From positions 1 to 20,810 of IMG/VR virus record IMGVR_UViG_3300033144_002376: 20,810 nt of DNA, one strand, 5' to 3'. A program made the position numbers and the translations under genes. Below are positions 362-20,141 of the stretch, piece after piece; the stretch's first letter is position 1, and each line of letters opens with the position of its first letter. The DNA comes from a virus. Under the pieces are notes generated by a model, which saw nothing but the letters and a program-made list of their open reading frames with translations, was not told where the DNA came from and made no database searches.

Positions 362-961
362 ATGAGCGACCTTTTTACCCTATGGGCAGTAACAACGACC
401 GGACGAGATCCGGATGACGACTTCGACATGGCTGAGACGGAGCTGCAGGTGCTTGAGGCTGACGTTGATCTCATGTACGGCCCACGGGGCTGGCGTGAGG
501 AAGACGGCGTTACAGGGCTTCCTGTGGGCGCTAAGGCGGTACTGGTCAAGGGCTGCGACATCATGGAGCAGGTCGAGATCAATCCCGGCCTGTATGGCTG
601 GAGCCAGCATCGGTCCATCCCGGATCCGAAGTTCCCAGCTATCACGATCTGGAAGTTCAAGGGAGACATTCCCGGCTTGACTCAGGTTGTGCAGCACAAT
701 GCGTACTTCCCGATTGCGGCAGAGGCCGGTGAGGGTGGGATGCTGCCACCGGCATGGGAGGATAGGACTGTCAACAGCCCGTTCCCCGTGGATGTGTTCG
801 CCACCCTGAAGACCAAGGTGGTTGGGGTGTGTGAGGCAGACCAGAAGCCTCTGGTCGCCGCCTGGTTCGATAACCTGATTGCTGAGTACACCAACCAGCT
901 GGACGAGTTCTCGCTCACGCCGAGACGATGGGATGTGGAGCTGGGGATTTACACGAGCTAG
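362..961 (+). CDS. Unrecognised phage protein, 199 aa
   Basis: The start ATG at 362 follows a clear AGGAG (352-356), which overlaps the upstream stop. The 199-residue product has no signal peptide, membrane segment or catalytic motif that I recognise. It is soluble-looking and mixed alpha/beta, with many Trp and Pro residues and two cysteines (in VKGCDIME and VGVCEADQ). The C-terminal third contains a helix-like stretch (FDNLIAEYTNQLDEF). It sits between a structural-like gene and the metallophosphoesterase/terminase pair, so a role in packaging or in the virion is possible, but position is the only support. It does not look like a small terminase subunit: no N-terminal helix-turn-helix is apparent. 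Confidence 0.75.
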   Translation: MSDLFTLWAVTTTGRDPDDDFDMAETELQVLEADVDLMYGPRGWREEDGVTGLPVGAKAVLVKGCDIMEQVEINPGLYGWSQHRSIPDPKFPAITIWKFKGDIPGLTQVVQHNAYFPIAAEAGEGGMLPPAWEDRTVNSPFPVDVFATLKTKVVGVCEADQKPLVAAWFDNLIAEYTNQLDEFSLTPRRWDVELGIYTS

Positions 962-975
962 AAGGAGGGGAGAGA

Positions 976-1851
976 GTGAGTAAGCAAGCGGAGCGCACAT
1001 GGCAGAAAGCAATAGTTCTGGGCGATATCCATATTCCGTACCACGATCCAGTGGCTCTGAATATGGTGTACGACTTCATCGAGGTCGAGGAGTTCGATTT
1101 GGTGATCCTGATCGGGGACATCGAGGCCTGCTACGAAATGAGCAAGTTTGCCAAGGACAAGGTGAGGGGAATCCACTTCGCGGACGAGGCGTTGATCGTC
1201 AAGGCAAATTTGCGCCAGCTGAGAAAATCGGTCGGCCCAGACGCTCGAATTGTCTACGTGTGCGGGAACCACGAGCACCGTCTGCAGAGCTTTCTGATGA
1301 AAGACGGGCGGGCTCTTCAGGGTGTCGAGGGGAATACAATCCCGGAAGTGTTCGGATTCAAGGAGTTTGGAATTCAGTGGGTGCCGTGCAACGCAGAGAA
1401 GTTTCACGATACCTACTGGCAGTTCGAAGGTTACGAGATTCTCTTCGGGCATTTCAACAGATTGGCGAAACACTCAGCGTACTGCGCCAAGAATATTGTG
1501 GACGACTATGGGATCTCCTTGATCCAGGGGCACGTCCATTCAATGGGGTTCCACGAAAGGAAGATGGAGAGAGGATACGTAGGTGGCTGGGAGAACGGAT
1601 GTCTGTGCGACCTGAACCCGATCTACATGAAACAGAAGAACTGGATGCAGGGATTCCACATCGTACACTTCGAGACGCCGGGCCGCTTCTTCGACGTGGA
1701 GGCGGTGCGGATTATCAATCATCAGTTCATGTACGGTGGCCAGCTCTGGCTGCCAAGCGGCGGAGGGAAGTCGGCTCCGTCAGTACAAACAGCGTCAAGG
1801 GTGGAGCTGATCACCTGGCTGGACAGGGCTAATGGAAGTACCGAGAGTTAA
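976..1851 (+). CDS. Calcineurin-like metallophosphoesterase
   Basis: The 291-residue protein carries the complete metal-binding motif set of the metallophosphoesterase superfamily: GDIH at residues 16-19, GD at 47-48, GNHEHR at 97-102, GH at 158-159 and GHVH at 185-188. The family uses two metal ions to hydrolyse phosphomono- or diesters, and phage members act on protein, nucleotide or nucleic-acid substrates; the substrate here cannot be told. I chose the GTG at 976 because AGGAGG (963-968) lies 7 bases ahead. An ATG at 928 would add 16 residues that overlap the upstream gene and has no comparable ribosome site. The gene overlaps the terminase nuclease gene by 20 bases, so the two are probably translationally coupled. 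Confidence 0.9.
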   Translation: MSKQAERTWQKAIVLGDIHIPYHDPVALNMVYDFIEVEEFDLVILIGDIEACYEMSKFAKDKVRGIHFADEALIVKANLRQLRKSVGPDARIVYVCGNHEHRLQSFLMKDGRALQGVEGNTIPEVFGFKEFGIQWVPCNAEKFHDTYWQFEGYEILFGHFNRLAKHSAYCAKNIVDDYGISLIQGHVHSMGFHERKMERGYVGGWENGCLCDLNPIYMKQKNWMQGFHIVHFETPGRFFDVEAVRIINHQFMYGGQLWLPSGGGKSAPSVQTASRVELITWLDRANGSTES

Positions 1852-2746
1852 AGTGTTGCGCGGCGAGGGCGATATTGCGATCGTCCCGATCCACTATTCC
1901 ATGGATCCTGAAAAGGATCTGGAGTGGTCGAGAAAGATGCGTGCACGCGGCATCGCCGATGACTGGGAGAAGGAGCTTGAGATAAACTTCGAGTCAGTCA
2001 TGGGCACCAGGTGCTTCGAGAACTTCAACATCGTCGCCAACACAGATCCGGACATCGCCTACAACCCACAGCTTCCCTTGCGCCTCGGCTGCGATTTCAA
2101 CGTACAGCCCATGGCATGGGTGATTGGGCAGATCCAGGCTAACGAGGAATTGCACCTGTTTGATGAGATTTACTGCAAGGAGGGGTCGACTGAGAAGTCC
2201 GTGGAGATTTTCCTGGATCGGTACGGGGATCACTACTGTGAAGTTTTCGTGTATGGCGATGCGAGCGGCGGGAACAGGTCAGCAAACAGCATTCAATCCA
2301 ACTACAAGATCATCAAGGACAGATTTCGCGGGATGCCATTCTCGGTGAGGATGCGTGTTCCGTCCAAGAATCCGTCCAATGTCAACCATGTGAACGCGCT
2401 CAACCAGAGGCTGCGGGACAAATTTGGCAACCCGCGCATCAAGATACATCCCACCGATTGCATGGAGTTGATCAGGGACATGACTCAGGTCGTCTGGGAG
2501 CCGGAGGGTAAGCACATCAAGAAGGTCCGCAGCAAGCCGGATAACCCATATTTCTGGAGGACCCACATGGCTGACGCTGTCATGGCGATTGTGTATCGTC
2601 ATTGGCCCGTGCGTGCTGAGGAGAATCGTAAATCTGAGGGGGAGAAAGAACATGACAAGAGGAAGAAAGAACGCCAGAACCGCAACAAGAAGAAGCGGTT
2701 GATTGGTGCCTTCCCGATGGCTGGAGCACGGCATGGTAGACGTTAA
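1832..2746 (+). CDS. terL: Terminase large subunit, nuclease domain only (ATPase half absent)
   Basis: The protein matches the C-terminal half of TerL, which cuts concatemeric DNA during packaging. Its RNase H-like nuclease shows the expected acidic residues: D88 in LGCDFN, D143 in VYGDASGG and D248 in THMADAV, with D111/E112 also near. Residues 15-65 (PIHYSMDPEKD, then DDWEKELEINFES) resemble the linker that normally joins ATPase and nuclease. No Walker A or Walker B precedes it, and at 304 residues it is well short of the usual 450-600. The frame upstream of 1832 is closed by stops and the metallophosphoesterase occupies that DNA in another frame, so the ATPase must be a separate gene outside the window or be missing. 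The tail (265-290) is Lys/Arg rich. It overlaps the portal gene by 14 bases. Confidence 0.85.
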   Translation: MEVPRVKVLRGEGDIAIVPIHYSMDPEKDLEWSRKMRARGIADDWEKELEINFESVMGTRCFENFNIVANTDPDIAYNPQLPLRLGCDFNVQPMAWVIGQIQANEELHLFDEIYCKEGSTEKSVEIFLDRYGDHYCEVFVYGDASGGNRSANSIQSNYKIIKDRFRGMPFSVRMRVPSKNPSNVNHVNALNQRLRDKFGNPRIKIHPTDCMELIRDMTQVVWEPEGKHIKKVRSKPDNPYFWRTHMADAVMAIVYRHWPVRAEENRKSEGEKEHDKRKKERQNRNKKKRLIGAFPMAGARHGRR

Positions 2747-4748
2747 CCAGATCGAGCAGCAGATGCTGGCGGCGCAGCAGCAGGATGGCGTGGCGAATGT
2801 CCAGTACAACGACGCCGCCCCGCTGGAGGCGCGTTTTGCTCCGGACCAGGATCTGCACAAGAAGATTCTCACCAAGCTCAAGTCAAGGCGTGAGTTCTCC
2901 CGAACCTTCACCCGTGATAGATGGGAAGAGTGGGACAGGGTGCGTGAGCACAACCGTATGTACATCGACCTCAACCGCTCCAAGCGCAGAGCTGATAGAA
3001 CCACCAACGTGAATGCAGTGGAGATGCCGTTCCAGGACGCCGTGGTCATCCCACTGTCCAAGGCAACACTCAGCGTGCTGCTGACTCAGGCCATGAGCAT
3101 CTATGGTGCCCGTGCCCCAATGGTCCAGATCGAGGCGTACAACGGGGATGACTACCTCAGCGCCAGACTCATGGAACAGGTGATTGCCTACGACATGATC
3201 CAGAGCAAGGCATTCAGCACTCTATACGCCGGGTTCTCTGAGGCGTTCCAGTTCGGTAATGGCTTCTTCTACGATAGCTGGGAGATCGAGAGCGGCGTTG
3301 GCTACAAGTTTGAATCGCTCGCACCAGAGGGAACACCGCCAGAGGTGGCGGCTGCGGTTCTTGGCCCGCTGGCATTCGAGCCCGTGCGCGTGCAGGGCGT
3401 CCAGCGTGAGTACCAGAGATGGCAGCCAATCAGTGCATACAATGCAAGACAGGATCCACGTGTGCCCCTATCGAAACTTGAGGATGGGGAATTCTTCGGC
3501 CACAAGTGGCGGACATCAAAGATGTCCCTACTGAAGAAGTCGGGAGAGAAGGGTCCGTACTTCAACATCGAGCACCTCAGCGAGCACGAGGTCATCAATA
3601 AGGATTTCGAGGACAAGGGTTACGATCCGGTCAACCCCGCTGAGCCTGCCGTGACCATGCACCACGAGAGCGGGAAGCAACCATGGCACAATATGGAGAC
3701 CATGGTGATCGAGCTGGTCCCATTCGATGAGGAGCTTGGCCCGAGCGAGGATCCTGAGAGATGGCTCTTCTGCTGGGCTGATGACAAGACGATCGTTCGG
3801 GCTCACCCGCTGGTCACCAGGCACCAGAACTTCCCGTACTCGGCGATTGAGCCTGACCCAGATTTCCACAGCACCTTCTCGCCGGGCGTTATCGAGAGTA
3901 TTGAGCCGATGCAGCGATTCATCAACTGGCTCTTCAACAGCCATGTTGAGAACATCACCACCGTGCTGAACAACCGGTATGCCTACTCGCCGTACTTCGT
4001 TGAGTCTTCGGACCTGGATTTCGGCGGGCCGGGGGAGAACGTGCGGATTACTCAGGAGGGTATCGATGCGCTCCTATCGGGAGAGATCCAGGACATCAGG
4101 CAGGTTCTGTTCCAGCTGCCAGCTCAGGATGTGACCGGGCCGACCTACATGAAAGCCGTCCAGTACGTGTACCAAATGGCGCAGGTTATGACCGGAGTCA
4201 ATGATCCGCTCTCGGGCATCCAGCTGCCCACAGAACGCTCCGCGACCGAGGTGAGTACCATCACCGCCCAGGCATCCCAGCGGACGGCTGTGGGGGTACG
4301 CCTGATGGACGAGAACGGCATCGAGCCACTGATCAAGAGATCGATATCAAACCGCCAGCAGTTTACGAGTATCGCGAGGTACTACCAGATCATTGGCGAT
4401 CTTGCAATGCAGTCCGGTATGGATTCCATCTTTGCCGGTCTTGAAGATCTACAGGGGGATTTTGTGTATAAGCCGGTTACCGGAATCTTGCCGGAAGACC
4501 CAGCCAGGTCAGCCACCACGTGGACCAATCTGATGGCCGCTGCCGGTCAACTGCCACAGCTGCAGGAGCCCGGACCAGACGGGCGGGTGCTGGACTTCCG
4601 TAGAGTGTTCGACACGATTGCAGAGAAGATGGGAGTAGCAAACATCGGTAGCTACTACATGGATGTGCAAGTCATGCCGGATGAGCAAGTAGATCAACAA
4701 GCACAGGCAGGCAACCTCGCGCCCATGGCGCTGCCACCGGGTGCGTAG
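2733..4748 (+). CDS. Portal protein (head-tail connector)
   Basis: This 671-residue protein forms the ring at the capsid vertex through which DNA enters and leaves. The assignment rests on its place between the terminase and scaffold/capsid genes, its length, which suits large podovirus portals, and its family-like patterns. These are an N-terminal helical region with VREHNRMY and SIYGARAP (about 70-135); a middle segment SIEPMQRFINWLFNSHVEN (about 387-410), typical of the long portal helix; and a region around PTERSATEVSTITAQASQR (about 495-515). The C-terminus is Gln/Ala rich. I chose the ATG at 2733 because GGAG (2723-2726) lies 6 bases ahead; a TTG at 2703 in the same frame has no such site. 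Confidence 0.85.
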   Translation: MVDVNQIEQQMLAAQQQDGVANVQYNDAAPLEARFAPDQDLHKKILTKLKSRREFSRTFTRDRWEEWDRVREHNRMYIDLNRSKRRADRTTNVNAVEMPFQDAVVIPLSKATLSVLLTQAMSIYGARAPMVQIEAYNGDDYLSARLMEQVIAYDMIQSKAFSTLYAGFSEAFQFGNGFFYDSWEIESGVGYKFESLAPEGTPPEVAAAVLGPLAFEPVRVQGVQREYQRWQPISAYNARQDPRVPLSKLEDGEFFGHKWRTSKMSLLKKSGEKGPYFNIEHLSEHEVINKDFEDKGYDPVNPAEPAVTMHHESGKQPWHNMETMVIELVPFDEELGPSEDPERWLFCWADDKTIVRAHPLVTRHQNFPYSAIEPDPDFHSTFSPGVIESIEPMQRFINWLFNSHVENITTVLNNRYAYSPYFVESSDLDFGGPGENVRITQEGIDALLSGEIQDIRQVLFQLPAQDVTGPTYMKAVQYVYQMAQVMTGVNDPLSGIQLPTERSATEVSTITAQASQRTAVGVRLMDENGIEPLIKRSISNRQQFTSIARYYQIIGDLAMQSGMDSIFAGLEDLQGDFVYKPVTGILPEDPARSATTWTNLMAAAGQLPQLQEPGPDGRVLDFRRVFDTIAEKMGVANIGSYYMDVQVMPDEQVDQQAQAGNLAPMALPPGA

Positions 4749-4756
4749 GGGCAGTC

Positions 4757-5107
4757 ATGGCGGAAGATCACGACATGAGAGTCGAGTGTGCGGGCGAGTT
4801 TGCTACGATCAAGGGGCAAATCCAGAGGGTGGCCAACGGAAGAGTTGATGCGATGGACCAGATCGGGAAGTTGACTGGTGCGATTGCTGGATATCAGACC
4901 GAAAACAGACTCGCACATGAAGATATCAAGACTGGCCTCAATGATCATCTCGTGCAAACCGAGGGCAGGCTGTCCACCCTTGAGGGTTCATCCAGATCAG
5001 CACATAAGAGGCTTGATTTTCTGCAGGGTAAATTCTGGTGGGCCATAGGTCTTATCGTGAGTGGGACTGTTGGCGCGGTGGTTACTCATGTGGCTGGAGT
5101 TTGGTAG
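4757..5107 (+). CDS. XhlA-like lysis membrane protein (candidate holin or holin accessory)
   Basis: This 116-residue protein has a soluble, heptad-rich N-terminal region (about 1-88) and one C-terminal membrane segment, from FWWAIGLI to HVAGVW (about 92-116). That layout, directly upstream of an amidase, is the layout of the haemolysin XhlA family, which acts with a holin and an amidase in phage lysis. The cysteine at residue 11 is not in a lipobox. The stop codon TAG shares its last base with the GTG start of the amidase, so the two are translationally coupled. A spanin is less likely because the membrane segment is C-terminal and there is no lipoprotein partner. Family assignment is by architecture and context. 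Confidence 0.65.
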   Translation: MAEDHDMRVECAGEFATIKGQIQRVANGRVDAMDQIGKLTGAIAGYQTENRLAHEDIKTGLNDHLVQTEGRLSTLEGSSRSAHKRLDFLQGKFWWAIGLIVSGTVGAVVTHVAGVW

Positions 5108-5673
5108 TGAAAGTAATGATTGATGCTGGCCACGGCGGGCGAGATAGCGGAGCTGTAGGCCCATCCGATATCCCCGAGAAGGACATCGCCCTCGTCGTGG
5201 CTCTTCAGCTTGGCGGGTGGCTGGCTCCAGGGGCGGATATCTCGTTCACTAGGGTAAGTGACCTATATATCCCCCTGGGAGATAGATGTACGTGGGCCAA
5301 CAATGAGGAGGTGGATTGCTTTATTTCGATCCACTGCAACGCAGCAGAAGACTCCAGGGCTAGCGGCTTTGAGTTCTTTACATCACCCGGCTTGACCAAT
5401 GCTGACTCATTGGCGAGTGGGATGTGGACGGCCTTCCGTTCCACCTTCCCGGCCATGAAGGGTCGGCTTGATACCAGCGATGGAGACGAGGATAAAGAGG
5501 CGCGATTCGCAGTCCTCGTAGGCACGAATATGCCAGCTGTGTTGGTCGAGCTGGGATTTATCACCAACCCGGATGAAGAGCGGTGGCTGTTGTCTCCAGC
5601 TGAACAGGCTAAGATGGTAGCTGCCCTCTCATCCGCAACCTACGATTGGGGGAGAGATAATGGGATTTCTTAA
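5107..5673 (+). CDS. N-acetylmuramoyl-L-alanine amidase (Amidase_3), endolysin
   Basis: The 188-residue enzyme should cut the amide bond between N-acetylmuramic acid and L-alanine in peptidoglycan during lysis. The Amidase_3 active-site set is complete: H9 in IDAGHGG, E24 in PEKDIAL and H76 in ISIHCNA as zinc ligands, and E148 in LVELGFITN as the catalytic glutamate. The protein is the catalytic domain alone, with no signal peptide and no separate cell-wall-binding domain, so export depends on a holin. I chose the GTG at 5107, with GGAG (5096-5099) 7 bases ahead. An in-frame ATG at 5038 would read through the membrane segment of the upstream gene in another frame and adds no family sequence. 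Confidence 0.93.
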   Translation: MKVMIDAGHGGRDSGAVGPSDIPEKDIALVVALQLGGWLAPGADISFTRVSDLYIPLGDRCTWANNEEVDCFISIHCNAAEDSRASGFEFFTSPGLTNADSLASGMWTAFRSTFPAMKGRLDTSDGDEDKEARFAVLVGTNMPAVLVELGFITNPDEERWLLSPAEQAKMVAALSSATYDWGRDNGIS

Positions 5674-7875: not shown

Positions 7876-9129
7876 ATGGCCGAAGCAATTCTAAACATGC
7901 GCGGTACTGGATCGTTCAGTGCCAGTGAGCGCCCAACCAATTTCCGGGAGAAGATTCTCAGGGAGTATCCGGACGGACCAGCTCCGTTTATGATGATCCT
8001 TGGAATGCTCAAGTCCGAGGACGTGGACGATCCTAAGTTCACGAACTTCGAGCAGAGCTTCCCGGATCAGGTCCATGCTCTCCACGCCAGCCCGACTTCT
8101 CAGTCGTCCGAGTCTGAGTCTGATGGCGTAACCACTCACCGCCTGCTACGACTAGGGACAGGCGATTACACCAATCCTGATTATTACTTCAAGATTGGTC
8201 ACGTGATCCGCAATGAGCGCACTGAGGAGCAGTGCCTCGTTCGAGGAAAAGAGGGGACCAACGGCCTTCTCGTAACTCGTAACATCGGTGTATCGGCGTC
8301 TTACGGTGACAACTCGGGTACGGTGGGAACCGGCGTCGAGATGCTCGTAGGGGACGTCATCACCATTGTCGGATCGTCGCACGAGGAGGGGGCCGACACT
8401 CCAACAGCGATCCACTACCAGCCATCGACGGTATGGAACTTCATCGAGACTTTCCGTACTGCTCTGTCGATGACGGACGATGCGGCGCAGACTTACTACA
8501 GAACTGGTAAGATCGCTGACAATCTGAAGTTTGACGCGGCGATGGCCCACTCCATGGAAATCGAGAAGTCCATGTTCTTCGGAAAGCGTGAGCGCGTAAC
8601 TGGGGCGATTGATTCCCAGCCACAGCGTTTCATGGGTGGACTGAACTTCTTCCTATCCAGCAACGTACAGTCATTCTCGACTGGTCTGACCCGGAACACC
8701 TTCCTGGACTTCCTGCGCCCGATCTACACGGTGCCAGGCGGATCCCAGAACAAGGTTGCCTTCTGTGGTGCGACCGCTCTCGGGATCATGACAGAGTACG
8801 CGGAGGATCTAGGTCAGATCTTCCTGGAGCCAAAGGATAAGACCTATGGTCTCCAGATCCGTACTCTGGTCCACGCATGGGGCGAGCTGAAGCTGGTCAA
8901 CCACCCGCTTCTGTCCGAGCACCCAACCTGGACCAAGAACATGTACATCGTTGACACCCGCAACGTTCTGTATCGTTACCTGAAGGGCCGTGATACTCGG
9001 TTCCTCAGAGAGCGTCAGGGCAACGGCGAGGATCGCGTAACCCACGAGTTCATGACCAAGTGCTCGCTAGAGGTACGGCACGAGCGTACTCACGGGATCG
9101 CGACCGCCATCGATTCATTCTCAGGCTAG
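7876..9129 (+). CDS. Major capsid protein (HK97 fold, SU10-like)
   Basis: The 417-residue protein follows the scaffold gene and reads like the SU10-type major head proteins. Features include an N-terminal segment with REYPDGPAPFMMILGML (about 30-50), a beta-rich E-loop-like region (about 75-140), a helical part with ALSMTDDAAQTYYRTGKIA (about 195-215), and the C-terminal signature THEFMTKCSLEVRHERTHG (about 390-408), close to the usual ending of this family. HK97-fold subunits form the icosahedral or prolate shell. There is no N-terminal delta domain or protease gene nearby, so assembly should rely on the separate scaffold. The start is set by GGAGG (7861-7865), which lies inside a hairpin. 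Confidence 0.88.
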   Translation: MAEAILNMRGTGSFSASERPTNFREKILREYPDGPAPFMMILGMLKSEDVDDPKFTNFEQSFPDQVHALHASPTSQSSESESDGVTTHRLLRLGTGDYTNPDYYFKIGHVIRNERTEEQCLVRGKEGTNGLLVTRNIGVSASYGDNSGTVGTGVEMLVGDVITIVGSSHEEGADTPTAIHYQPSTVWNFIETFRTALSMTDDAAQTYYRTGKIADNLKFDAAMAHSMEIEKSMFFGKRERVTGAIDSQPQRFMGGLNFFLSSNVQSFSTGLTRNTFLDFLRPIYTVPGGSQNKVAFCGATALGIMTEYAEDLGQIFLEPKDKTYGLQIRTLVHAWGELKLVNHPLLSEHPTWTKNMYIVDTRNVLYRYLKGRDTRFLRERQGNGEDRVTHEFMTKCSLEVRHERTHGIATAIDSFSG

Positions 9130-12703: not shown

Positions 12704-14930
12704 ACGAGCACCCACTGTTCCGTTTCCGGCCCCGCAGGCTGGTGTGGTTGTATCTGAGCACCCGAAGAATGTCGGTGTGACCGGCCTTCGTAATGCCTTG
12801 AATGTGGTAGATCGCAACGGCATTCTTCAGGTACGAGACGGACAAGATCTCTTTGAGGTTCTGGAAGACACTGCCTCGGCGGACCCGGTTCTGGGCATTA
12901 TCTCGCTAGATGTACAGGATTACGGTGTTACTGAGGAGAATCGTCTCCATTACCTGACGGATGATGCATTCCAGTACAAGGACGACGGGACGTGGAAGAC
13001 CGCCTCAACCAAGACTGATGACTGGGGGACGGATCTGGTTGGTCCCAATGCTGCCGATGTTGCCGTTGTTACTGACAGGCTGCACGTTGAGTGGAAGAAC
13101 ACTATTCAGTGGGACGACATCGATGCCGAGTCCAGTGAGACGGCCAAATACCTAAGAATTGAGGTGGATTACGACGCCGGGGCTGGGATTGGCGGATCTT
13201 GGTCGGCCAAGCTGCATGTTTACTACGGGGCTGGTCCAAACTTTTCGGTTGACGCCAGCACGTTTACGATCAGCTCGGTTGATATGGTTGACACAGTGAT
13301 TGGTGGCGTTGGCTATCAATTTGATGATGGGGCCACACACTACAGTGGGGTTTTCATTGTCTGGGACAACAACGACATGGAGGATATCCGATATCGCCTC
13401 GGTGCCCCGACCGCCGGTGACGCTGAGTACAATCAGCTTATCGTGAATGGTGCCAGGTATGGCATGCCGAATGGTGGGAGCCTGTATGCTGGCCTGGACA
13501 GGGATGCCACGGCTCAATGGGCGGCGTGGGATTATGGGCAGGTGACGCATGTCATTGGTGCGGTCGGTGTTGATAAGGGCTACGTTTTTGAGTTCCATGA
13601 TTCTGCTGGTGCACTCGATACGAAGATTCAGGCGTGTGGCGAGCCTGGAGTTTGCCCGAAGGCTGAGTGTGTGGCGGTAGCTGGTCAGCGACTGGTTGCT
13701 GGGAATATTGCGTTCATTGATTCAGTCGAGACGATTGATAACATGGGCTGGGACACGATCAACGACGCAGTGGATTACGCTAGCTACCCCGATGGAATTA
13801 TCTATAGCGGAACTGTCCTGACCGGTGGTCACAAGACGTGGTACCCGACTGACATTATCCGCCTGGCCGATACGCCTGGCCAGATTAAGGCGGTCAAGGC
13901 CATGGGTATGATGATGGTCGCCGTCTACAAAACTGACGCTATTTACATTCTGGCTGTGCAGAGCGGGCTCGCGGCCTTCCGCCCGGATCTCCGAGCGACG
14001 GGGATCAAGGGTCCGGTTGGCAGGAATGCAGTAGCGGCGATCAGTGACAACTTGCACATCTACCTCGGGGAAGATGGCGGGTTGTACGTATTTGATGGAA
14101 GCACCCCCCGCAGCATCGGTGAGCAGTTCCGTGCTTGGATCGGGCGTGAGATGGATTCCGATTACTCCAATCGATCCTACCTCCATTTCGATTCCTTCAA
14201 GAATGAGCTTCACGTTTACTACCCACACAAGGGCAGCGGTGGCGTGGTCAGGCGTGGCTTGATCGTGTCAATGGACAAGCAACCGTACCGTGGGTGGTCG
14301 GTTGAGTATCCGGCTCGGGGGTATCACAGCGTATCGGCTGATGTGCAGGACATGGACCTACCGTGCATGGCGGCTCATTGGGAGTCTGGGCCAACCAGGT
14401 CCGGGGATATTATGGGCCACAGCTGGCCAGCAGCCGGAGTACCCGACGGCACAGACACCAGTTTGTACTCGGAGATCCTCTTTGGCACACAGTATGCAGC
14501 CGGGGATGCCCAGCTTCTCAAGCTCGTGGAGGGCAAGGATGATGGGCAGGATTCCACCGAGGGTCCAATCTATGTGCTAATGCGTTCCGGGCTGACGGAC
14601 TTTGGTGACCCAGAAAGGCAGAAGATCGCCCTTGAAATCGAGTGGCTATTTGATCGCGTCGTCTCGACTGAGGCATGTCCTTTGATTGCAAGACTTTATG
14701 GCGGTCAGACGAACACCGAGTATGAGCTGCTGGATACATGTACTGAAATTGATTTGACAGATTACCCACCATATGTAAGTGAATTTCGTGAGCAGTCACG
14801 ATATTTCGCATATGAGCTTGAATTTAACTGGTATTCTCCAAGACCTGGTGGGGTTGCACCCACGCCAAACTTTGATGGCGCTCTGGCCAGCATTGCCGGT
14901 GGTGGCAGAAGGCGACAAGTGAGTCCATGA
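12696..14930 (+). CDS. Tail nozzle / tail tubular B-like protein (beta-propeller type)
   Basis: This 744-residue protein has the plan of podovirus nozzle proteins, which form the end of the short tail and gate DNA exit. The N-terminus has the usual 'LRNALNVVDRNGILQVRDG' (about 31-49). Propeller-like blades follow: RLVAGNIAFIDS (about 332-343), IKAVKAMGMMMVAVYKTD then AIYIL (about 398-420), and AISDNLHIYLGEDGGLYVFDG (about 449-469, read in two parts). Between about 60 and 290 lies an extra beta region that may be an inserted domain. The ATG at 12696 is chosen because it fits the family N-terminus; an upstream ATG at 12651 would lie deep in the preceding gene. The ribosome site is weak, so coupling to the upstream gene is likely. 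Confidence 0.75.
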   Translation: MVRRAPTVPFPAPQAGVVVSEHPKNVGVTGLRNALNVVDRNGILQVRDGQDLFEVLEDTASADPVLGIISLDVQDYGVTEENRLHYLTDDAFQYKDDGTWKTASTKTDDWGTDLVGPNAADVAVVTDRLHVEWKNTIQWDDIDAESSETAKYLRIEVDYDAGAGIGGSWSAKLHVYYGAGPNFSVDASTFTISSVDMVDTVIGGVGYQFDDGATHYSGVFIVWDNNDMEDIRYRLGAPTAGDAEYNQLIVNGARYGMPNGGSLYAGLDRDATAQWAAWDYGQVTHVIGAVGVDKGYVFEFHDSAGALDTKIQACGEPGVCPKAECVAVAGQRLVAGNIAFIDSVETIDNMGWDTINDAVDYASYPDGIIYSGTVLTGGHKTWYPTDIIRLADTPGQIKAVKAMGMMMVAVYKTDAIYILAVQSGLAAFRPDLRATGIKGPVGRNAVAAISDNLHIYLGEDGGLYVFDGSTPRSIGEQFRAWIGREMDSDYSNRSYLHFDSFKNELHVYYPHKGSGGVVRRGLIVSMDKQPYRGWSVEYPARGYHSVSADVQDMDLPCMAAHWESGPTRSGDIMGHSWPAAGVPDGTDTSLYSEILFGTQYAAGDAQLLKLVEGKDDGQDSTEGPIYVLMRSGLTDFGDPERQKIALEIEWLFDRVVSTEACPLIARLYGGQTNTEYELLDTCTEIDLTDYPPYVSEFREQSRYFAYELEFNWYSPRPGGVAPTPNFDGALASIAGGGRRRQVSP

Positions 14931-16408
14931 TGAGTGACAAGTATCTTGAAGACCTGGCACTTCCGCCAGTGATGTCACTTCCACCTCAGCCTGCCAGCGA
15001 GGAAGATTTGCTTGAGTGGGCCAAGGAGCTGCACACCGTTCTGCAGAACACCTATCTTCCGCAGGCTGACCGCGTCGAGAACATGAACATGATGGATGAG
15101 GGGACGAAACGTAGGCCAGACTCGAAGGGAACCAGGCGATTCTTCTTTGATACCAAGCTCGGGATTCTCTTCTTTGACGTCAAGGTGTCCGGACAAGAGA
15201 CAGCTGACTGGACGCCGGTCGGCGGAGATGGAGCCTTCCTGCCGCTTTTGGGTGGGACGTTGACTGGTGATCTAATCCTATCTGCTGCAGACCTGTACCT
15301 GGACAATGACCAGTACATCTACGCTGACGAGGTCGGGGGCACGGTTCGCCAGCTTCTCGGGATTGATTCGAATGACATGGTGCAGCTCGGCGACGAGTCT
15401 CTGGACATGGAGATTAACGTAGCTGATGATCTGTTTATCATTGGCGGCAACGTTACCATTGACAATGCTGCCATCTTCCAAGCGAAAGGCTCCGGTGGAG
15501 ATCCCGAGATTCTCATGTACTTGGATGGGGCGGACAATGTTCGGATCGGCAATGCGGGCTTCCCGCTTTATATTCGAGGAACATCGCTTGAGGATTTCCC
15601 GATTGTTGCCAACAACTTTCAAGTTGAGGCGTGGAATGACGCTGGTGATGTTGCGTATGACGTGGTGAGGTTTTCTTCTAGCGATGAATTCGTCTGGGGA
15701 GATCTCGGTGCCCATTCCACGTTCCATGTAGATACTGAGCTGGAGATCGTCGGCGGGAACATGGTCATCGGGAACAACGCGGTCTATGCCAGCAAGACGG
15801 CTGGCGGAGCCCAGGTTGATTTGCTTCTATTTGACGGCTCAACCAGGGTCTGGGTTGGACACGCATCGTACCCCATGAATATCCTCGGTGACGAGATCGA
15901 CACGATTCCTCCACTCAATAACAACCTACCGCTTAAGGGTCTCAAAGCTGGCAGCGGATCATACAACATTTGCAAGCTCAATGCGGATGATGATGTGGAG
16001 ATCGGGGACGATGCCACTGACATGTACCTTGCTTGTAACCAGGGTGTACTCGTTAGCGGGTTTGCAATTGCCATGGAGCACAACAACTCGTTTCTCCGTG
16101 GCTATTTGACTGGTGCTTCCTTCGTTGATTTGATCGGAGTTGATGGATCAGACGTGGTCGTCATCGGCAATGCCACCCAAGTCTCCCGCCTGAAAACGGA
16201 AGACTATCTTGAGTTTACGTTTGGCGGGGCCGGAGACGATGTTCAATTCCTTGGCTTCTTGGGTGGAAGCGATGCATCGTTCCCGGCGGGGCCAACCACA
16301 TCCCAGCTTCCGAACGATAAAGATTTCTGCATCTGGGAGAATACAACAACTCACGTGCATAAGTGGTATATTAACCATGGTGGATCGATCGAGAGCATTG
16401 GAGTTTAA
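14927..16408 (+). CDS. Tail fibre protein with six ~51-residue repeats
   Basis: The 493-residue protein starts at ATG 14927, overlapping the nozzle stop by 4 bases. Residues 1-110 hold a helical N-terminus (about 23-48) and a short beta unit (FFFDTKLGILFFDV), likely the tail attachment part. From about 110 to 420 there are six repeats ending in V.(L/I/W/V)G(D/N/H), with the key glycines at residues 155, 208, 258, 311, 360 and 414. Alternate repeats resemble each other most, giving a double unit of about 103 residues. Such repeats build trimeric beta-rich fibre shafts. The end (about 425-493) is a separate small beta region, with HVHKWYINHGGS near the C-terminus. No chaperone or lyase motif is seen. 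The likely role is receptor contact. Confidence 0.78.
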   Translation: MMSDKYLEDLALPPVMSLPPQPASEEDLLEWAKELHTVLQNTYLPQADRVENMNMMDEGTKRRPDSKGTRRFFFDTKLGILFFDVKVSGQETADWTPVGGDGAFLPLLGGTLTGDLILSAADLYLDNDQYIYADEVGGTVRQLLGIDSNDMVQLGDESLDMEINVADDLFIIGGNVTIDNAAIFQAKGSGGDPEILMYLDGADNVRIGNAGFPLYIRGTSLEDFPIVANNFQVEAWNDAGDVAYDVVRFSSSDEFVWGDLGAHSTFHVDTELEIVGGNMVIGNNAVYASKTAGGAQVDLLLFDGSTRVWVGHASYPMNILGDEIDTIPPLNNNLPLKGLKAGSGSYNICKLNADDDVEIGDDATDMYLACNQGVLVSGFAIAMEHNNSFLRGYLTGASFVDLIGVDGSDVVVIGNATQVSRLKTEDYLEFTFGGAGDDVQFLGFLGGSDASFPAGPTTSQLPNDKDFCIWENTTTHVHKWYINHGGSIESIGV

Positions 16409-17283: not shown

Positions 17284-17778
17284 ATGTACGCAGAGATTGT
17301 ACATTTTGCGTATAATAACTGCCACACACTGGGCGGTCCGGTATTGCACCGGGCTGCTAAGTTCGCTGTGGACAATGACTTGGACTCAAACCCGGAGATC
17401 CTATGGCACACGCTCGCCTCCCAAATGGCAGCACAAAACCCGGACACAGTTGTTATTGCTGCAGTCGATGGGAAGAAAGTGGCTGGCCACCTAGTGGCTC
17501 GTGCCGTAAACTACGATGGGAATGTGAGCGTCATGATCACCCAACTCCAGATCGATTCGAAGATGAGGGAGGATCGAGAGGAGACGATGGCGATGGGCTG
17601 GGCCAAACTGGAGGAGTGGGCCAAGTCGATCAACGCGAAGAATATCCGCTGCTGGGCTATGAACGAAAAGGTAGCGAACCTCTTTGAGAGGTTCGGCCTG
17701 GTAGATAAGGGCTATGTCCTGATGGAGATCGGAGTTTCCAACTCCGAGGATGAGGACGGGGTGCCCGAGGAGAATTAG
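17284..17778 (+). CDS. GNAT-fold protein, acetyl-CoA loop apparently degenerate
   Basis: The 164-residue protein follows the GNAT acetyltransferase plan: strands at about 55-61 and 65-74 (VIAAVDGKKVAGHLVAR), a long strand at about 82-91 (SVMITQLQID), a helix at about 98-116 (EETMAMGWAKLEEWAKSI), a strand at 120-125, then NEKVANLFERFGLVDKGYVLM (about 127-147, in two parts), where GNATs have their final helix and strand. The usual Q/R-x-x-G-x-G/A loop after the long strand reads SKMREDREETM and has no glycines, so acetyl-CoA binding may be lost. GNAT-like proteins occur among podovirus internal virion proteins; I recall T7 gp13 being placed in this fold group. The position before internal virion genes fits that idea. 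Confidence 0.75.
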   Translation: MYAEIVHFAYNNCHTLGGPVLHRAAKFAVDNDLDSNPEILWHTLASQMAAQNPDTVVIAAVDGKKVAGHLVARAVNYDGNVSVMITQLQIDSKMREDREETMAMGWAKLEEWAKSINAKNIRCWAMNEKVANLFERFGLVDKGYVLMEIGVSNSEDEDGVPEEN

Positions 17779-17779
17779 C

Positions 17780-19210
17780 ATGGCGGGTGGCGGCGGCAGC
17801 GGAACAAGTACAACTAGTGCGTCATTGCCTCCTGAGCTGAGATCGCTATACAGAAATGTATCGAACCAGCTCATTGGTGGCATGAATCAGAACCCAATCA
17901 CTGACTTCAATGAGATGGATCCGCGTCAGATCGCTGGCGTTGACCCACTTCAGCAGGAAGCCTACGACAACGTAAGCCAGCTCTTTGGTGGTCAATCCGA
18001 GTCACTTGCATCGGCACAAGATATGGCCGCTCGCCTCGGCAACCAGCAGCCCTGGGGAGGAACTGACCTTGGTGGGGTGGGCGGTCTTTCCGATGTCGAT
18101 ATCCCGGCTTATCAGGGCGGGGGCGGGCCTGGCGGACAGGGAGGACTGCCACCAAGAGAGGATCCGTTCCAGGGGCAGGGCCGAGAGTCTGGCTTCCAGC
18201 TCCCAGGCCGTGAGAATCTAGCCAGGGATACAACTGCTCAGATCAACATGCCGGGACAGCCGGGACAGGTAGCAGGCCCGGAGAACGTCGACAGCGCCCT
18301 ACAGAATATCGACTTTGGTTCTCACCCTGCTCTCCAGTCAGCCATGAAAGCGTTCCAGGCGTCAGCGATGCCGGGGATTGCCAACTCAATGGCTGCGGCT
18401 GGTCTATCCAGGAGTGGTGCTTCCGGTAAGGCTGTGGCTGATGCCAAGGCTCAGATTGCGCTGCCCGTGATGCAGCAGTTGATGGGTTTGTCGGTGCAGG
18501 AGCGCGGCCAGGACATCGGGCAGGAGCAGTTCGGGTCACAGTTCGGGCTCAACCAGCGTGGTCAGGATATCGGCATGCGATCCGGCGACATCAACGCCAT
18601 GCTTGGACAGCGTGGACAGGACATCCAGTCCGACATCTCTCAGCGAGGGCAGGATGTGCAGTCATTGCTCGGGCAAAGAGGACAGGATATCAGTGGCACG
18701 CTGGGCGCACGTGGGCAGGATGTAGCCCAGAGGGGACAGGATCTCCAGGGTGACATCGCTGCACGTGGACAGGACGTGGGGCAGCGTGGACAAGATGTCC
18801 AGAGCCTGATTCAAAGCATGGGGCTTGGGCTCCAGGCGAGAGGACAGGATATCAACGCGATGATAGCTGGCAGGGGACAGGATCTCGGTGCGCGTGGGCA
18901 GGACATTGGTGCTATCCTACAGCAGGGTGGGCAGGACCTGGGCGCGAGAGGACAGGATATCGGCGCTACCCAAGCTGGCATGGCTGGTATGATGGGTGTG
19001 GACCAAGCGGAACTGAATCAGTTGCTTGCCGGGCTTAGCCAGGGTGGGCAGTTTGGTGGCTTGTTCCGTGGCATTGATCAGGCGGGGACGGACGCTGAGT
19101 TCGACGAGGAGAACCGTCAGTACAACATGGCGCGTGAACTACTGCTCGCTCCTCTCGGTGGCATTAACTCACAGGTTGGCAGCTCGACCGTCACAAAGGA
19201 AGGTAAGTAA
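17780..19210 (+). CDS. Internal virion-type protein with RGQD repeat helix, 476 aa
   Basis: The ATG at 17780 follows the GNAT stop by 1 base, with GAGGAG ahead; an ATG at 17750 in the same frame lies inside the GNAT gene. Residues 1-90 include a Gly/Ser-rich start and a helical region with RSLYRNVSNQLIGGM. Residues 90-180 are Gly/Pro/Gln rich and probably disordered. Residues 180-240 are helical (LQSAMKAFQASAMPGIANS, then VADAKAQIALPVMQQL). Residues 241-396 carry fourteen copies of (R/G)GQD(I/V/L) spaced by 7, 11 or 18 residues. The C-terminus holds a Gly-rich link and a last helix. Composition and place suggest an ejected or core protein; no enzymatic motif is seen. Confidence 0.75.
   Translation: MAGGGGSGTSTTSASLPPELRSLYRNVSNQLIGGMNQNPITDFNEMDPRQIAGVDPLQQEAYDNVSQLFGGQSESLASAQDMAARLGNQQPWGGTDLGGVGGLSDVDIPAYQGGGGPGGQGGLPPREDPFQGQGRESGFQLPGRENLARDTTAQINMPGQPGQVAGPENVDSALQNIDFGSHPALQSAMKAFQASAMPGIANSMAAAGLSRSGASGKAVADAKAQIALPVMQQLMGLSVQERGQDIGQEQFGSQFGLNQRGQDIGMRSGDINAMLGQRGQDIQSDISQRGQDVQSLLGQRGQDISGTLGARGQDVAQRGQDLQGDIAARGQDVGQRGQDVQSLIQSMGLGLQARGQDINAMIAGRGQDLGARGQDIGAILQQGGQDLGARGQDIGATQAGMAGMMGVDQAELNQLLAGLSQGGQFGGLFRGIDQAGTDAEFDEENRQYNMARELLLAPLGGINSQVGSSTVTKEGK
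18500..18967 (+). repeat. In-gene repeat encoding 14 copies of (R/G)GQD(I/V/L)
   Basis: Degenerate DNA repeats of the type CG(T/A/C)GG(A/G/C)CAGGA(T/C)(A/G)T encode 13 RGQD and one GGQD. Distances between successive first residues are 18, 18, 11, 11, 11, 7, 11, 7, 18, 11, 7, 11 and 7 residues. Third codon positions vary between copies while the peptide is kept, so the repeat is held by protein selection and is not a recent DNA duplication. Confidence 0.9.
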
Positions 19211-19464
19211 TGGCTGGTCTAAGAGCGAAGAAGTTCAAGAAGAAAGTCAAAGAAGGAGCGATGCGGGGGCTGGCCCATGCGGTCGGGGCTGGTCCGCTCT
19301 ATGAGGCTGGCCAGAAAGTGAAGAAGGATCTGGCCGGTGCTGGTAAGCCTAAGCCCAAGAAGGAAACCAGAGAAGAGCTGCTCCAGCGGGGCAAGAGGGA
19401 TATGGATCGCATCCAGGAGCGCCTGGACCTTGAGGATCAGTTCGATATCAAACGGGGGAAGTAA
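19210..19464 (+). CDS. Small, very basic protein, 84 aa
   Basis: The ATG shares its first base with the TAA stop of the repeat-protein gene, and AAGGAAGG lies just ahead. The first 20 residues are dense in Lys and Arg (LRAKKFKKKVKEGAMRG), the middle has a Lys/Pro/Gly linker (KPKPKKE), and the end is a charged helix (about 55-78). No membrane segment or known domain is recognised. It could bind DNA or the acidic virion interior, but that is inferred from charge alone. Its own stop shares a base with the next ATG, so it belongs to the same translation-coupled set. Confidence 0.7.
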   Translation: MAGLRAKKFKKKVKEGAMRGLAHAVGAGPLYEAGQKVKKDLAGAGKPKPKKETREELLQRGKRDMDRIQERLDLEDQFDIKRGK

Positions 19465-20141
19465 TGGGATTCTTCGATGACCTGGGCAGGTTCAGTGGGA
19501 TCGGAATGCTGAAGGATCCCAAGAGGCTCCTGCAGCTGGCTAAGATGGCTGCTCCGATCGCCGCTACTGCGGTTGGTGGACCATTGGCTGGTATCGCAAC
19601 CGGTGCTGCCGTCGGTGGTGGTAGTTCGGCTGCCAAGGGCGGGGGTCTCAAGGATATCGCATTGCAGGCTGCCATTGGTGGCGGCACGTCAGCTCTCGGT
19701 GCTGGTGCTGGCAAGGCGCTCGGCGGGCTGGCCCAGGAGGGTGGCAAGCTGGCTGCGAGCAAGGGTGTCCAGACAGCAGCCGAGAAGGGGCTCAGCCTTG
19801 GCTTGGAGCAGGAGCTGGCGCGTAAGGGCACTGAGCTTGGGGTTGGCGCAGCCACTGGAGCAGGTGAGGGACTGGCGGCTGGCGCAAAGCTCGGCCTGAA
19901 GAACGCGCCAAGGTTCATGGAGCAGGCCGGGAACGTGGCGGATAAGGCAGCAAGCCAGGTCCGGTTCATGGAGCATATGCAGGAGCTTGGCGGGGCTGGC
20001 ATAGATGCCGCAGCCGAGGCCGGAGATCGCAAGAAACAGGCGGCAGCACTGAGACAACAGGCGAACTTTGCTAGAATGTCCTCAGTGCCGCAGGGCCAGC
20101 AGTACGGCGTAGAACCTTGGGTTCCGGGTCACTTGAGATAG
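19464..20141 (+). CDS. Gly/Ala-rich probable internal virion protein, 225 aa
   Basis: The start ATG overlaps the upstream TAA by one base, and GGGG at 19455-19458 is a weak ribosome site. The N-terminus is amphipathic (MGFFDDLGRFSGIGM), followed by APIAATAVGGPLAG and long Gly/Ala stretches (about 30-145) that could be membrane-active. From about 145 to 210 it becomes helical and charged (QAGNVADKAASQVRFMEHMQ, then RKKQAAALRQQANF). Such composition is common in podovirus ejection proteins, which leave the capsid and insert in the host envelope. Its N-terminal 45 residues resemble those of the holin-like protein at 5660-6241. No specific family is recognised. Confidence 0.7.
   Translation: MGFFDDLGRFSGIGMLKDPKRLLQLAKMAAPIAATAVGGPLAGIATGAAVGGGSSAAKGGGLKDIALQAAIGGGTSALGAGAGKALGGLAQEGGKLAASKGVQTAAEKGLSLGLEQELARKGTELGVGAATGAGEGLAAGAKLGLKNAPRFMEQAGNVADKAASQVRFMEHMQELGGAGIDAAAEAGDRKKQAAALRQQANFARMSSVPQGQQYGVEPWVPGHLR

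Follow-up and report, generated by a model that had tools for sequence, protein, structure and literature searches.

RGQD repeats spaced by 7, 11, or 18 residues in a viral protein proposed to form a DNA-ejection tube

The stretch of DNA analyzed here, hereafter the window, is 20,810 bases long and spans a whole virus record; it is probably a fragment because its relatives are 63-65 kb. One of its genes encodes a protein in which the tetrapeptide RGQD recurs at a few fixed distances. What holds the copies at these distances, and what would a protein built in this way do for the virus? The features that bear on these questions are collected in Table 1.

Table 1. Coordinates of the RGQD protein, its parts, and other features in the window
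Feature	Position	Strand	Basis
Calcineurin-like phosphoesterase, near left end of late gene region	928-1851		PF00149
SU10-type portal	2703-4748		PF23899/PF17236 pair of SU10-type portal and capsid
N-acetylmuramoyl-L-alanine amidase, own gene between portal and capsid genes	5038-5673		PF01520
SU10-type major capsid protein	7876-9129		PF23899/PF17236 pair of SU10-type portal and capsid
Gene with weak tail-fiber match	14927-16408		phrog_37013
GNAT-like acetyltransferase, directly 5' of RGQD gene	17284-17778		phrog_1249, E 4e-4
RGQD protein, proposed ejection-tube protein, 476 aa	17780..19210	+	ORF; homologues 43-50% identical
Conserved segment just 5' of array, IDF..HPALQSAM..F...PGIANSMAAAGLSRSG...QIALPVMQQL, residues 177-234	18308..18481	+	Many invariant columns of alignments A1 and A2
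RGQD array, 13 exact copies, spacings 7/11/18	18503..18958	+	Sequence count
Predicted single alpha-helix, residues 254-404 of 476-aa protein, ~226 Å	18539..18991	+	AlphaFold2 on alignment A2
Conserved C-terminal segment 3' of array, AGM.GM ... RQYN.AR.LL..PLG...SQVGS.T	18974..19207	+	Invariant columns from residue 399 on
Small basic protein, 84 aa	19210..19464	+	ORF directly 3' of RGQD gene; no family match
Gly/Ala-rich protein with hydrophobic stretches, 225 aa, candidate membrane-active ejection protein	19464..20141	+	Similar ORF in relatives; no family match
Start of further protein, cut at contig end	20148..20810	+	398-428 aa ORF at equivalent place in relatives

The array and its predicted helix

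The array extends from the first R to the last D over aa 242-393 of the 476-aa protein, or aa 252-403 if translation starts at an in-frame ATG at 17750, which makes the protein 10 aa longer (486 aa). The 12 intervals among the 13 exact copies (18, 18, 11, 11, 11, 7, 11, 7, 18, 11, 7, and 18 residues) take only the three values that a sequence-only reading of this DNA had given. That reading had counted thirteen spacings, which is right if a GGQD at aa 393 is taken as a 14th copy that splits the last 18 into 11 + 7, but not for exact RGQD; similarly, an RSGD at aa 277 divides another 18 as 7 + 11 (both positions in the 486-aa reading). Given its amino acid composition, the 162-residue array should contain ~0.06 RGQD by chance. 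Across the 13 copies, five Arg codons, four Gly codons, and both Asp codons are used, giving nine distinct 12-mers, and TRF found no DNA tandem repeat in the window. Based on this codon diversity and the result with TRF, recent DNA duplication does not account for the spacing; the amino acid pattern is old or selected.

The window protein had no match in Pfam, PHROG, or the PDB and none in GenBank phages by tblastn. A search of viral contigs for close relatives of the protein and a search of genome contigs with alignment A1 also gave no match.

Using alignment A2, which holds only 4 sequences and is to be read with the caveat that single-chain helices are easily over-predicted, AlphaFold2 modeled a single helix (length reckoned at 1.5 Å per residue) that covers nearly the whole array with pLDDT values of ~85-94 over residues 271-390, while the remainder of the protein was mostly of low confidence. 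This agrees with the earlier suggestion of one helix of ~150 residues. Disorder or beta structure of the array, which that reading had named as the opposing outcomes, was not supported, as the model gave a helix instead. A Foldseek search of the model against the PDB returned nothing, which is uninformative for one long helix.

At 3.61 residues per turn, the hydrophobic moment of the array is 0.76 compared with a mean of 0.21 and a maximum of 0.64 in shuffles, and the resultants of the Arg and Asp stripes are 0.95 and 0.94, respectively. Relative to a hydrophobic face made of I/L/V, the mean Gly lies 62 degrees to one side and the mean Arg 68 degrees to the other, with the mean Asp at -124 and the mean Gln at +129 degrees. 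Arg and Asp each form a tight stripe, but a charged stripe is only part of the picture, the helix being clearly amphipathic with an I/L/V stripe between its R and G sides. From this geometry, we infer that neighboring helices could pack with the Arg of one lying over the Gly groove of the other.

Recurrence of the 7/11 spacing in phage proteins

An alignment-based search identified three loci (L238, L239, and L240) on 63-65 kb contigs; two relatives found by a motif search (L017 and L174) lie on two of the same contigs. The proteins of the three loci are 43-50% identical to the window RGQD protein and are conserved in the segments flanking the array on both sides, while their arrays are shorter, with 4-6 RGQ[DN] copies. 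The spacings are 7, 11, and 18, and a lone 25 in L239 equals 7 + 18 by way of an RGQT copy; homologues departing from 7/11/18, the outcome named beforehand as evidence against the pattern, did not occur among these three. As read from the sequence of L240, RQQD and REQD precede the array at spacings of 7 and 11. These copies are in register, and glycine, which had been taken as a constant of every repeat, is therefore not obligatory. It may, as the sequence-only reading suggests, allow unfolding during ejection. We note that the N-terminal module is encoded by a separate adjacent ORF in L238 (6998-7549 and 7559-8620) and L239 (6998-7564 and 7574-8641).

DNA patterns for RGQD pairs 7 and 11 residues apart matched 117 and at least 120 viral contigs, respectively. 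Each of these searches fixed one spacing and left the others free, and the free spacings in the proteins found were 7, 11, 18, 29, 36, and further combinations of 7 and 11. With the array masked and at an E value of 1e-4, 226 phage proteins fell into 37 groups that are dissimilar outside the array, although distant relationships may exist between groups, and all their spacings were sums of 7 and 11. An open-gap scan (7 to 17 residues) returned in-frame gaps of 7 (14 cases), 11 (9 cases), and 14 (2 cases), of which a few 7/11 matches look spurious (L227 and L222) and some come from near-duplicate contigs; by inspection, the four other gaps (9, 16, 17, and 17) sit in wrong-frame or repetitive ORFs. 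In 130 nonredundant proteins, 47 of 50 one-mismatch copies, which were used in no search, were in register (i.e., 7, 11, 14, or 18 residues from the nearest exact copy) compared with 1.9 expected from shuffles.

An undistorted alpha-helix has 3.6 residues per turn. The longest arrays of 25 groups together contain 84 heptads and 100 hendecads, corresponding to 3.607 residues per turn, and a straight helix is implied by this mean across groups. The window array averages 3.610, in line with the nearly straight helix of the sequence-only reading.

Among the other carriers, L016 (2229-7088, minus strand) encodes a 1620-aa phage protein with 24 RGQD, mostly spaced by 18, after a long Pro/Gly-rich N-terminal part. 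Using tblastn in phages, the RGQD proteins of L146 and L042 had no match and that of L097 matched one hypothetical protein. Among the open-access papers that the literature search covered, none described an RGQD motif in phages.

The largest group (163 proteins) includes P22 gp20, which contains ARGQN-7-RGQD-11-RGQD and is encoded between genes 7 and 16. According to a review, gp20 is ejected and probably extends the channel across the envelope (PMC8954989). Its homologue Sf6 gp12 forms a decameric mushroom-shaped particle with a channel in vitro and has a predicted coiled coil at 222-293 that connects to the stem, and this stem can accommodate the phiX174 H tube (PMC4755594); the RGQ motifs of gp12 at 220 and 227 coincide with the start of this coiled coil. 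In 12 gp20 homologues (P22, Sf6, and ten identified by tblastn regardless of motif), at least one RGQ[DN] copy is present in 10, and where there are several, the spacings are only 7, 11, or 18. The motif is not indispensable, since those of SEN22 and APSE-2 lack RGQ[DN] and those of HK620 and Emek have a single copy each. For a gp20-like protein (L012; 32 sequences), AlphaFold2 gave a helical array region at low confidence (pLDDT ~42-47). The same protein served as a control for the gp20 family profiles phrog_917 and phrog_2534: it matches phrog_917 at 4e-192, while neither the window protein nor that of L238 matched any PHROG family. Hence, the profile test did not place the window protein in the gp20 family.

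Gene neighborhood and other explanations

In L238, L239, and L240, the RGQD gene is followed by a Gly/Ala-rich ORF of 206-247 aa resembling the 225-aa one in the window, an ORF of 398-428 aa, and a giant ORF. The latter is ~2972 aa in G001 (L243, 2481-11408), 3826 aa in G003 (L245, 312-11792), and at least 1718 aa in L239. The ~2972-aa and 3826-aa ORFs had no Pfam or PHROG match, and the 3826-aa one also had none in the PDB; they are similar in size to the N4 virion RNA polymerase, and no such domain was found in them. The peptidoglycan-cleaving SLT lytic transglycosylase domain PF01464 is absent in G001-G003, the three relatives, and an M15 peptidase is encoded by a separate gene in L238 (6149-6511). 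In podovirus ejection cassettes, one protein commonly, but not always, has a domain that cleaves peptidoglycan. A 164-aa ORF similar to the GNAT-like gene of the window lies 5' of the RGQD gene in L240 (1558-2052).

Set against the P22 order gp7-gp20-gp16, the window has the RGQD gene, the 84-aa gene, the 225-aa Gly-rich gene, and the cut ORF, with no gp7 or gp16 profile match, and the window protein and the downstream genes tested showed no relation to known ejection proteins in Pfam, PHROG, or the PDB. By its order and gene sizes, the row in the relatives is a putative ejection cassette. In L127, the gene for a 395-aa RGQD protein that matched no PHROG family is flanked by the genes for a phrog_598 "DNA ejection" protein and for a protein of 633 aa, an arrangement that matches the P22 7-20-16 order. 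In L097, an SLT transglycosylase-like gene precedes the RGQD gene, and the array region of the protein weakly matches phrog_7725 "virion structural protein."

A long helix could also serve elsewhere in a virion. An array acting as the coiled-coil shaft of an external part (tail needle, tail fiber, or decoration) instead of an ejected tube would fit the commonness of long helices in needles and fibers and the gene with the weak tail-fiber match, which ends ~1.4 kb 5' of the RGQD gene. We regard this as unlikely, because P22 gp20, the known carrier of the rule, is ejected, the independent RGQD groups L127 and L097 adjoin ejection or lysis-type genes, and the downstream row of the relatives ends in a giant ORF, unlike a fiber operon. 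Many scaffolds are helical as well, and the phrog_7725 match in L097 would agree with an internal scaffold, head-assembly protein, or non-conduit spacer, in which the 7/11 spacing would keep one face for binding the portal or a head protein. Yet, scaffold genes usually lie between those for portal and capsid, whereas the RGQD gene is ~8.7 kb 3' of the capsid gene, and P22, whose gp20 shares the rule, has a different protein as its scaffold; we consider such a role quite improbable.

Finally, the repeat could have arisen incidentally when units of 21 and 33 bp were duplicated as in a minisatellite, its spacing having no structural meaning. The varying array length among homologues and the long run of 18-residue units in L016 point in this direction, but codon usage, the TRF result, the same two spacings in 37 groups, the degenerate copies still in register, and the mean pitch all argue against it, and this explanation is disfavored to the point of being very improbable.

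The proposed tube and known ejection systems

The reading that we favor, and hold to be fairly probable, is that the array is a long straight amphipathic helix, that the protein carrying it serves a short-tailed phage as an ejection (pilot) protein, and that the array forms the wall of a trans-periplasmic DNA-ejection tube. Ejection, oligomerization, tube formation, and DNA conduction are inferred by analogy, the model following the proposals for P22 gp20 and Sf6 gp12 and the structure of the phiX174 H tube (PMC8954989, PMC4755594, and PMC7354561). A 7-residue repeat would add 2 turns to the helix and an 11-residue repeat 3 turns, so that R, G, Q, D, and the I/L/V after them would each keep their own face. 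Several helices could then pack in parallel, with contacts through their I/L/V, G, and R faces, and build an alpha-helical tube; this tube would assemble outside the virion and conduct DNA across the periplasm. Heptads and hendecads offset each other to give 3.61 residues per turn; the wall of the tube would therefore be almost without supercoil, and units could be gained or lost without breaking register, altering the length of the tube. Because the 7/11 rule is also found in P22 gp20 and in dozens of unlike proteins from uncultivated phages, some of which occupy the DNA-ejection gene slot, it is probably a marker for the wall of a tube through which phage DNA enters the cell.

More tentatively, and with some doubt, RGQD 7/11 arrays may be a portable tube-wall module shared, by exchange or convergence, by many dissimilar phage ejection proteins, in which the number of units would set the length of an unsupercoiled tube, much as a ruler fitted to the host envelope would. 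Few phage proteins diverge as strongly as those for ejection, many of which carry the annotation "hypothetical." The rule offers a signature for detecting putative tube proteins that profiles miss (37 groups, including the window and L127 proteins) and a testable geometric model of P22-type tubes, with straight helices, constant faces, and a length adjustable in register.

Among known systems, P22 gp20 and Sf6 gp12 share RGQ[DN] spaced by 7 and 11 with the window protein, and gp20 is close to it in size (471 versus 476 aa) and is likewise encoded in a virion-gene neighborhood, in a short-tailed phage. In contrast, the gp20 family has mostly 1-4 copies and none in 2 of the 12 homologues, the N- and C-terminal parts of gp20 are unrelated to those of the window protein by PHROG models, and a gp16-like gene directly follows gp20, whereas the 84-aa and 225-aa genes follow the RGQD gene. 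T7 gp15, the tunnel protein of the T7 ejectosome, would share with the window protein the functional slot proposed for the latter in the ejection cassette of a short-tailed phage, but it has 747 aa, and the window protein gives no profile match. Five ejection proteins are released by the short-tailed phage SU10 (Kuravirus; PMC9509320). Its portal and capsid types are those of the window (PF23899 and PF17236); among its ejection proteins gp20-24, SU10 gp20 has transglycosylase activity, in contrast to the lack of an SLT domain in the three relatives. The pilot protein H of phiX174, an unrelated ssDNA phage, forms a decameric DNA tube from a single long R/Q-rich helix that mixes hendecads and heptads, with Gln, Asn, and Arg making up most of the lumen lining (PMC7354561). 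It differs from the window protein in having a block of 3 hendecads followed by 11 heptads and no RGQD. A continuous helix of 7- and 11-residue units is what the AlphaFold2 model predicts for residues 254-404, and a DNA-conduit role for the window protein is suggested by analogy with H.
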